A stretch of DNA of 64,000 nt from Neolentinus lepideus HHB14362 ss-1 (Eukaryota > Basidiomycota > Agaricomycetes > Gloeophyllales > Gloeophyllaceae). Shown here piece after piece: positions 49,334 through 53,128 of this stretch; the stretch's first letter is position 1; every line of letters starts with the position of its first letter. The stretch spans positions 228,498 through 292,497 of the forward strand of contig KV425578.1 of the NCBI GenBank assembly GCA_001632425.1, written 5' to 3'. The translations under genes were made by a program, and so were the position numbers. The notes beneath the pieces are model-generated. The model was not told the origin of the DNA, ran no database searches, and worked only from the letters and a program-made list of their open reading frames with translations.

Positions 49334-51376
49334 GTGTCGTTACATATCGGAGTTTACCTTCTACTGTCAAGTCAGCAGGGGTTTTATCGTTAGTTACTAG
49401 TTAATAGTCAACCTCGCATACAAGTTAACAGTTGATCAATGAATGACTTTAACGGGTGGTTTCAACATTCCAGAGAGCAATAACATGGTAGATAATGTTT
49501 TGTTTGTGATTCAAGGCAAAGTATTGATGATAAATAGTGCAAAAAAAAATCAAAAAGGCACAAAAAAGGTGGTTATTGTCCCCACGCTGCGCTTCAAACA
49601 TTCAGACAGCTTCCTGGACAAGCTTGCCCTTCATCTTGGTTCTGAGCAAGTGCATCAAAGAAGCTTGCACACATTCAAATATTCAAGACCCCACCTCATT
49701 CACCAGAATCTCATCTCACCATTGCATTGCAAGAGGCAGATGTTCAGATGGGTAAAAGTGCGAAAGTTGGATGCACAGCTGGTATTAGAGCGTATTTGCA
49801 GCGCCCAAACGGCCAATTTTATTCAGAAATTTGGAGCTTCCGATTCATAAAAACGTGGCAAGCCAGAATGCCGTAACCAAGGGTCAATTGTTGCAAAGAC
49901 TTGCCCATAGCACTCGCGTTTTCCACTCTTTTGACTTCATTTTTTTTCAGGGATGAAATATCGATACATACGACTCTGATGCATCCAAGAATGGTCTTGA
50001 TATGCTGAGCTTTGGAGGAAACCGAGCATCAGTGAAACATCAGTTGCGCTATTTTTAGCCATCACTCGCGGTTGACCCCAAAAATTGGAACTCTCTTTCA
50101 CAAAACTTTTGGGCGCTGCGAATATTATGCCACAACAACTTCATGTGCAGACGCTCAAACGCTCAAAATGAAGCGATGCCAGAGAATTAACTTGAACGCG
50201 TGGATAAACACTTTCACGACCCTGCAGCGTTGAATTGCATGCGGTACTATCCCCACTCAGTCAGGTAGAACATGTTCCGTCGGTTCCGTACGTAGGAAGT
50301 CCGTTCGCTGATGGCCGCCTTAAATGTGAGTTTGTAACGCACTCTATTGAAGGGGAGGCGTCTTCTGCGAGTCAGTCTAAGGGCCGATACAGGTCAGCTT
50401 GACAGAGTAACAACGGCAGGCATGTCATTTCCCGGTATTTCAATCGCCGGCTCTACCAAGGTGACCGTTGATCATCGATCATCACTCAGGCGAGAGCCCG
50501 CATAGCCCGGATGATATCGCGAGAATGAAACCACATACCCATGCGAGCGATGTGATCACATGATGCCTAAACGGGCGCACGTATAAAATGCAGTCGACGA
50601 AGAAAAAATAAGATTGTAGCCGGTACTAGCAAAGTGAGAGGTGATAAGCGAAGAATGGAAGGGACAAGGGTGGTAAGGGATACGACAGGTATGTAGACAA
50701 TGATACAATACTGCGATGGAAGTGCAGCAGACAAACAAACGACGATGCATCTGGCATGAATAACTCGGTATCCATCAGTCCGCTTCACAACAAACAGGGC
50801 AAGTACCGTCTCACGGATAAGTTAGAGAAAACAACTGAGGTACATGGGAAGAAGACGAAAAGGAGCAAGATGGAGGGATGTCAGGTTTGACTGGGCCTTC
50901 AACACAGTTTAGCGGGGCGTCAAGCGCAAGGCAAGAATCAGCGGAGTTCTGAGAGCGCCAATTCAAAGCATGATTTCTCGAATCTAAGAGGGTTGAGCAA
51001 AAATAGCCGAGCAGACCATGTGAGCGTTCTCGCACCCTGAGAACAAGTCGAGGCAACTCACATTCTTGCTTATGATTGCACTGCCCACATTGGGAAGCAA
51101 AGAATTGCATTCACGCCCGATGAAGCGCCGAAAGAGTTGATCGAAGGAGGAATTGACATGGAGTTTATCGCGCAAACATAGCAAAAGGAAGAGAAAAATG
51201 AGTTAACCATTAACGACGGGACAACGCATGCAAGACAAATCAACGCGTGAATGTGTGCCGCCCCCGAGTTGTGGCCAGCTCAGCGGGGAGGTCGGAAAGA
51301 AACCAAGAGAGTGAATGCATAGTACAAGTGTGAAAACATGCAAGCGAGAAAGGACGTCTGAACGTCGTGAACGCGA
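49334..51376. other. Intergenic, nothing recognised
   Basis: About 2 kb between convergent cullin-4 and G-alpha genes, presumably including both 3' untranslated regions. Short A-runs near 49540 and scattered small palindromes only. No coding or RNA gene is supported. Confidence 0.45.
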
Positions 51377-53128
51377 TCATATGAGCGCAGCATTCTCGAG
51401 ATTGCTTCGCAGAGTGATACTGCAGCCCAGGTGAGAAGGGCGCACGATAAGCGGGGGTAGCGGCAATGAACAATCGAAACATGAGAGGCAGGAAAGGATC
51501 ACTCACTCTGCGAAGGAAGAACGGGAGGACAGGATGGTCAGCACTTTGATACCAAATAGGGAATATGTTTAACATACCTTCTACTGCGGCCATCACCACC
51601 CGCAACATAGCCGTGTCCGTTGCTGTTGTTAGGCTGGGGAACATGTCAAGCGTCAACCACTGGGAACCAACTACAATACAGCGCAGCGTTAAAGTCCGTC
51701 TTCACTCACTGGATGTAAATCTCCCGTTCCTTCGCTCCCGCCTTCTGTGCTAACTTCGCGAACCGTCTCTTGAAATACTCGCGGCCAGCACGTACATCAC
51801 CCGATTCACCGTCAAAATCCTACATTGACAGGCTGGTAAATCCCCGAGGAACAGGTCAATACGTGACATATACTTACAGGGAAATAGTTCTTGATATCAG
51901 AGTGTGCAATCTTCTTTTCGAAAAGATCGTTCTTGTTAAGGAACAAGATCTAGACACCGCGTTATCCAAACGGTCCACAGTCCTCGGCAGATAAAAAAAC
52001 GCACTATAGACGTCGTCTTAAACCACTGTGAATGGCATATCGAGTCCCATATAGTCATAGCATCTTGCATTTGATTCTATGATGCGAACATCATCAGAGC
52101 CAATCAGCACAGGCACACGCCACGAAGCTTACCGCATCCTTGTCTTCTACCAGGCATTGATCGTAACCACTCAAGCTCACCAGAAAGAGTATACTCGTAA
52201 CGTCCTGGAAACAATGAATCCACTTGCGCCGTTCACTCTTCTGTCCACCGACGTCTACCATGAGCATCTCGTGGTCCTTCAGCTGGAACATCGTCTCTGT
52301 GATACCGATTGTCCGTGCACGACAATGTACAATGTCCAATTCATGTGGTTGGTAATCTGGCTTGAATAGACGGTCAAGTTGGGGAAAGAAGTACTCGAGG
52401 CTTTCGTAACATGAAAGCGGTCAGATCGAGTACATGAAAGATAGACGAACGACTCACTTTTCGGGCAGCGCAGCCTCGTTACCTCTGCTGTACGCCTTTT
52501 GTAGATTCTCGTCTCCCCAAAGGTTATTCAGAGGCTCATAGAAAGACTCGGGAAATGGTTCGTGATCCTTGATGTCCGCAGCGTTCTCAATAAGTTCAAG
52601 ATATGGCTGATTCGCCTCCGACACTTGGAGTTCCATATCCTCCATCGCTAACAGGACAGATTGCAGGCCGTGAGTAAGGTTGTTGAAGACAAGTTGGCGA
52701 TACGACTCGACTTCTTGGGGAGTGAAGGGGACTTTGTGAATGAGGCGCATTTGCTTTGAACGATCATCACGTTCAGCGCCACAATTCTAATGATTTCGAT
52801 GCGGACGAACTTACCTTTAGGATCGTTGATTTGCCGGAGTCTCCGGAACCTAGCAGCAAGACCTGAAAGACCTCAATAATGACACTGATGTACATCGGGA
52901 ACCGCTCCATACCTTGACTTGCGATGCTAGCTTTGCTTTCGCCTGGACAATGCCGTATCAGCACGCATATTGAAGCAGGTTTAGGAGACTCAGCAGATGT
53001 TGCCGAGAGCGGCTGTAATGTCTGCCACAGGTTATGCTCACCTCCCTCAACTCCTTTTCCACCTCCTTATTCCGCCTCTTCTCGTCCTCCGAAACCTCTA
53101 CACCACCCGAAGACATGCACGCACCCAT
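51377..53128 (-). CDS. Heterotrimeric G-protein alpha subunit
   Basis: Eleven predicted exons (minus): 53042-53128, 52913-52942, 52815-52862, 52458-52753, 52133-52400, 52005-52076, 51878-51949, 51710-51819, 51578-51633, a one-nucleotide exon at 51507, and 51377-51419. They sum to 1083 nt, 360 residues. MGACMSS gives an N-myristoylation Gly and a palmitoylation Cys for membrane attachment. G1 is LLLGSGDSGKSTILK (GAGESGKS in most family members), switch I RARTIGITET with the arginine finger, switch II DVGGQKSERRKWIHCFQDV, G4 FLNKNDLF, G5 TTATDT, and the receptor-contact C-terminus NLENAALI. It couples GPCRs (nutrient or pheromone) to cAMP or MAPK signalling. The frame closes only with the micro-exon. 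Confidence 0.92.
51507..51507 (-). other. Predicted single-nucleotide exon of the G-alpha gene
   Basis: Minus-strand context CTTCCTTCGCAG | A | GTGAGT: a pyrimidine tract with a CAG acceptor directly abutting a consensus donor. The preceding exon ends GTA GAA G (51578) and the last begins TATCACTC (51419). Joining G + A + T makes GAT, giving AVEDITLRSNLENAALI, the canonical G-alpha ending. The flanking introns would be 70 and 87 nt. Confidence 0.75.

Follow-up and report, generated by a model that had tools for sequence, protein, structure and literature searches.

The gene for a G-protein alpha subunit (Gα) in the window, as we call the whole 64,000-nucleotide stretch of Neolentinus lepideus DNA that was analysed, raises the question of how its reading frame is carried into the C-terminal tail, as the exon ending GTAGAAG at 51578 is out of frame when it is joined straight to the exon that opens at 51419. 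The original prediction answered this with an exon of exactly one nucleotide, the A at 51507, and on re-reading of the sequence all the positions it gave proved to be correct. It is very likely, judging from the sequence, that a genuine exon of one nucleotide is present in this GPA2-like Gα gene, that it feeds two alternative tails and that the introns around it are removed sequentially.

The Gα gene and its reading frame

The gene lies on the minus strand from 53128 to 51377 and consists of nine ordinary coding exons, the single base and a final exon, with ten introns of which introns 1 to 8 span 50-99 nt. All features given here and below are on the minus strand. Exon 1 starts from the ATG (87 nt, 53042..53128) and is followed by exon 2 (30 nt, 52913..52942), exon 3 (48 nt, 52815..52862), exon 4 (296 nt, 52458..52753), exon 5 (268 nt, 52133..52400), exon 6 (72 nt, 52005..52076), exon 7 (72 nt, 51878..51949), exon 8 (110 nt, 51710..51819) and exon 9 (56 nt, 51578..51633), which has GTA GAA G at its 3' end and thus stops in phase 1. 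The coding sequence sums to 1082 nt without the A and to 1083 nt with it (360 codons and a stop), exactly as had been calculated before. The 360-residue product matches the Pfam G-alpha family (PF00503) with 396.8 bits over positions 1-332 of 333, at a cut-off of 48.8, and among the matches listed for the full-length protein query its best match is a GPA2-like Gα of Gloeophyllum trabeum (P0001; Agaricomycetes, order Gloeophyllales) with 94% identity.

Besides the window gene there are 13 other Gα-like loci in the genome (L010-L022, on contigs C48, C13 (two), C29 (two), C39, C121, C43, C3, C42, C44, C2 and C9), which form an enlarged family whose C-terminal tails vary; L023 was dropped from this set since it resembles an Arf-type GTPase. 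When the 13 loci were inspected by eye, 12 were found to read through the Asp/Glu region unbroken, L019 being ambiguous, and the interrupted codon therefore seems to be specific to the subfamily of the window gene.

An acceptor and a donor around one base

Between exon 9 and the final exon lies an interval of 158 nt, in which CTTCCTTCGCAG-A-GTGAGT places a complete acceptor and a complete donor (CGCAG-A-GTGAGT) around exactly one base. The A (51507..51507) divides the interval into intron 9 (70 nt, 51508..51577, GTATGT...CGCAG) and intron 10 (87 nt, 51420..51506, GTGAGT...CTGCAG), after which the terminal exon of the first tail ('LR' type; 43 nt including the stop, 51377..51419) opens with TATCACTC (T ATC ACT) and ends with its stop at 51377. 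The A is the second base of an Asp codon, and with it the protein ends in AVED-ITLRSNLENAALI, which bears out the earlier claim of a completed Asp and a canonical Gα ending; the Asp of AVED aligns with Asp in three solved Gα sequences (Gt/Gi, Gq and Go). The acceptor before the A has 21 pyrimidines in the preceding 25 positions, the maximum in the gene, the other nine acceptors of the form with the first tail having 12-17 and the two acceptors of the second tail 15 and 19. The branch-point-like CTGAC that had been noted in the upstream intron was also confirmed, with its A placed 30 nt ahead of the acceptor.

Enumeration of splice solutions with GT or GC donors, AG acceptors and minimum intron lengths of 30-40 left the one-base exon as the only in-frame solution with no added residue, among the micro-exons and single introns enumerated, and no AG-N-GT other than the one around the A occurs between 51577 and 51081. 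Other micro-exons in the 158-nt interval were rejected because they insert at least five residues or introduce a stop. If the donor after the first acceptor is read through, the protein ends in AVEE. No second copy or allele of the junction with up to two mismatches was found in this genome besides the one in the window.

A zero-length recursive splice site has an acceptor AG followed immediately by a donor GT. As one base must stay at this junction, we rejected such a site, although the stepwise action may proceed in a similar manner, and for the same reason we rejected a stwintron, in which a splice signal is interrupted and no exonic base is left. The enumeration also brought out an alternative that the original prediction had overlooked, a single intron from a donor at 51573 (GTTAAA, 4 nt further on) to 51420, which joins the exons as GGTATTATC and gives AVEGIITLRSN in frame with no one-base exon. 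GTTAAA is a weaker donor than GTATGT, the Asp common to animal Gα would be lost, and CAG-A-GTGAGT would be left unexplained. Removal of the whole 158 nt as one intron has a good donor and a good acceptor, and would yield an altered tail of 38 residues (AVE followed by VSLCEAI...). This frame-shifted product, or a gene in decay, is highly improbable, as the remainder of the gene is intact by its Pfam G-alpha score and the tail is in frame in the relatives.

The motif is improbable by chance. In 20,000 dinucleotide-preserving shuffles of the 158-nt interval, YAG-N-GTRAGT occurred in 0.075% and YAG-A-GTRAGT in 0.02%, while the minimal motifs were less rare (YAG-N-GT in 18.9% and YAG-A-GT in 3.4%). 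Counted over both strands of the 33.8-Mb genome there are 933 YAG-N-GTRAGT sites, from which about 0.002 are expected per 158 nt of one strand. The full window has three against 1.8 expected, and thus no excess. As an observation on the genome as a whole, YAG-N-GTRAGT is scarcer than its reversed control (933 versus 1431 sites), and contacts between acceptors and donors of this kind are perhaps avoided. The low chance of the motif also speaks against a one-base assembly error within an exon. Single-base errors do occur, but the models of annotated orthologues go wrong at this junction in several orders, and we find this explanation hardly credible.

Transcript-like and annotated orthologues

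We collected 173 distinct orthologues from three overlapping searches, taking the best 120 of 3868 matches to the whole protein and 111 of 111 and the best 120 of 142 matches to tail queries; as two of the three queries were tails that included the Asp, the set is biased toward Asp-bearing proteins. Among these 173, 69 come from short contigs of 1.1-3.2 kb. Since the window gene has ten introns, a reading frame that runs this far without a break in so short a contig points to transcripts, from which these 69 proteins probably derive. AVED followed by the tail is present in all 69 of the transcript-like orthologues listed with no inserted residue in any, and from the Asp onward the tail has 14 residues in 41 of them, 13 in 27 and 12 in one (P0115). 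Among the 104 named annotated orthologues listed, 103 of them with a listed contig, none has AVED with a normal tail. The whole-protein query alone gives the same picture, with the AVED tail in 53/53 transcript-like versus 0/67 annotated proteins (best 120 of 3868).

Many of the errors in the annotated models are those that a one-base exon would cause. The ending AVEE, found in 34 of the 104 annotated orthologues listed, is also what the window gene yields if splicing at the first acceptor is followed by read-through of the donor. In 11 (P0003, P0006, P0019, P0033, P0040, P0045, P0067, P0074, P0111, P0119 and P0120) Gly stands in place of the Asp with no other abnormality, which might reflect a read aligner that placed the isolated A on a flanking G of one long intron. 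In seven, AVE is followed at once by the final exon in a frame one base off (Athelia psychrophila, Daedalea quercina, Heterobasidion irregulare, Boletus edulis, Somion occarium, Coprinopsis cinerea okayama7 and Psilocybe cubensis), five of them spanning five orders (Atheliales, Polyporales, Russulales, Boletales and Agaricales). Six of these seven fit the shifted exon at every compared position (9 to 13) and one at 11/12, a fit reached by 0-20 of 5000 tail shuffles and by none of 56,435 body 13-mers; the same decoding gives a weak signal for P0024, P0063 and P0102 and an offset one for P0025, all outside the seven. The other 52 of the 104 also have wrong endings, outside these three classes. 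Two kinds of error can occur side by side, as in Somion with both AVEE (P0038) and the shifted exon (P0136), on contigs listed with equal length, and in two strains of Coprinopsis cinerea with one each (P0031 AVEE, P0150 shifted). Seven annotated proteins listed have Ser before I[VT]LR, as expected where AG is joined to T or C before ATC.

One inserted residue in an otherwise normal tail was found in five annotated proteins listed, including the closest one, that of G. trabeum (P0001), and this is the observation that favours the donor at 51573. The insertion is absent from all 69 transcript-like orthologues listed, and the five may therefore be gene-prediction compromises; the single intron from 51573 is very unlikely. 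Some sequences count against the one-base exon. Two Mycena models (P0171 and P0172) and one of Serpula (P0075) fit no simple scheme, the latter alone among the annotated proteins listed in having the Asp, with unrelated residues after it. P0068 of Flammulina, for which no contig is listed, ends in AVEE and might be derived from cDNA. A search by pattern for orthologous genomic DNA returned 4 stretches in viral contigs and 28 in genome contigs, none of which was confirmed.

The one-base exon as the interpretation of the locus is thus supported by the Asp in 69/69 transcript-like orthologues listed, by the annotation failures and by a second tail, which is described below. It appears to be conserved in the relatives, as the transcript-like sequences and the failures of the annotated models together suggest. 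With 0/104 correct among those listed, the public Gα models of this subfamily would seem to have a wrong receptor-contact tail.

A second encoded tail, probable stepwise splicing and known systems

The original prediction had the exon feed a single ending, and this part seems not to hold, as a second tail that needs the same base is also encoded. The second ending, DAIISKNIREIML, lies about 300 bases past the first stop. It would be reached by an alternative intron 10 (426 nt, 51081..51506) that runs across the exon of the first tail, and it consists of a 19-nt exon (AIISKN, 'SK' type; 51062..51080), an intron of 78 nt (GTGAGT...CTTAG; 50984..51061) and a 21-nt exon that includes the stop (IREIML; 50963..50983). 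In the DNA, GGGCAG precedes and GTGAGT follows TGCAATCATAAGCAAGAAT in the first of these exons, and CTCTTAG precedes ATTCGAGAAATCATGCTTTGA in the second. After the A the two exons read D-AIISKNIREIML-stop, the same as the tail of P0085, whereas without it the first exon, which begins TGCAATCA, leads to VQS and a stop. Both terminal exon sets (51419-51377, and 51080-51062 with 50983-50963) are in the same phase, as alternative terminal exons should be; the Asp codon takes its third base from whichever tail is joined, and neither tail is in frame unless the A is present. That two unlike tail exons share a phase and need the same base adds an independent line of support for the one-base exon.

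The 69 transcript-like orthologues listed have 41 tails like ITLRSNLENAALI and 28 like AIISKNIREIML. On a tree of the protein bodies, built from the 69 Asp-tailed proteins only, the two kinds are mixed, with at least 18 changes, 7 of them forced by well-supported branches, and a single origin of tail kind was seen in 0 of 200 bootstrap trees. Such mixing suggests that the receptor-contact tail is spliced alternatively, and the one-base exon looks to be situated just upstream of the fork. Even with a real one-base exon, the tail of the second kind could instead be an unused relic in this species, or the tails of the relatives could come from separate gene copies. Copies do exist in Armillaria solidipes, in which P0119 and P0120 have one tail each and different bodies, and tail kinds are slightly clustered on the tree, as shuffled labels average 22 changes and 22-25 of 500 shuffles are as low as observed. 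Against this stand the label changes on the tree, the position of both tails downstream of a single gene, where they agree in phase, carry splice signals and read without interruption, and the Suillus-like bodies of P0032 (first kind) and P0073 (second kind), which are 99.1% identical over 348 residues and bear different tails. We consider a relic or separate copies unlikely.

It is likely that the one-base exon is spliced stepwise. U2AF and U1 can hardly sit on the shared AG-A-GT simultaneously, and as the acceptor and the donor could thus hardly be occupied together, the two flanking introns would leave one after the other. The upstream 70-nt intron would go first, after which GAAG+A faces an intact GTGAGT donor; we prefer this order because the acceptor of that intron has the pyrimidine-rich tract in its favour and a full donor remains in the product. 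Removal of the downstream intron first is a possible alternative order. The GTGAGT donor would then be joined either to the near acceptor (first tail) or to the 19-nt exon beyond the 426-nt intron (second tail). The resulting two Gα proteins would be identical up to their final 12-13 residues, the stretch in contact with the receptor. The tail of Gα ends helix α5, which contacts the receptor in animal Gα, and the likely effect is therefore an altered choice of receptor. What the sequences show directly is the anatomy and the frames of this gene and, in the relatives, both kinds of tail; the order of splicing, both isoforms in this species and the differing receptor choice of the tails we infer. 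The arrangement may have originated from an older intron after GAAGA, with a second intron gained later between GAAG and A. A wider idea is that the exon is a mushroom-wide gate, where inclusion would lead to one of two receptor-specific Gα proteins and skipping to a frame-shifted null, with specificity and dose set at a single base; this we regard as speculative and rather doubtful.

One-base exons had been described as extremely rare in any eukaryote. The case is not unprecedented, as APC11, VPS55 and CYP621A show; one-base exons are already known, and the window gene is a further case of the kind, in a setting that is new. In Arabidopsis APC11 a single-nucleotide exon, also an A between ordinary introns and needed for the frame, was shown with cDNA and mutated constructs, and sequential removal was proposed (PMC4674806); it differs in being in a plant and constitutive as described, with no alternative-tail fork described in the accessible part of the paper. 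The same paper cites removal in downstream-first order around a 9-nt potato exon. The 1-nt microexon of plant VPS55 similarly is one base with a GTRAGT donor and missing from annotations, that of VPS55 having long been conserved, while it lies near the N-terminus in another gene and kingdom and has an intron-retention alternative in some plants, according to the accessible text (PMC8831610). The Fusarium CYP621A exon, by its authors' own description the first in a fungal gene, resembles the present one in being fungal, in supplying the middle base to a conserved codon, in resolving a long apparent intron into two of normal size and in having wrong annotated models; it differs as an ascomycete P450 with the base G, one product and support from RNA reads (PMC12940212, from the part available). 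Fungal stwintrons (spliceosomal twin introns) likewise have two introns in contact that are removed consecutively, but a splice signal is divided by the inner intron and every base in between is lost, whereas the window gene has to keep one (PMC6616335, as outlined there). Vertebrate GNAO is, like the window gene, a single Gα gene with two endings in the receptor-contact region, and its alternative exons encode regions required for receptor coupling; in the portion of the source at hand the pair is of full-size final exons with no one-base exon at the fork, in an animal (PMC5896119). The present case was not found among the papers listed in searches on one-nucleotide exons, fungal micro-exons, stwintrons and fungal Gα splicing, most subscription journals being outside their scope.

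If the reading is true, it would place a basidiomycete case, apparently across several orders and in a central signalling gene, beside the three published nuclear genes found. Since a single base cannot accommodate internal signals and neither tail can do without this exon, the gene would provide a clear-cut experiment of nature on the stepwise removal of introns. The existence of two tails points to a single Gα gene that may be retuned to different receptors through splicing, in a manner comparable to vertebrate GNAO.
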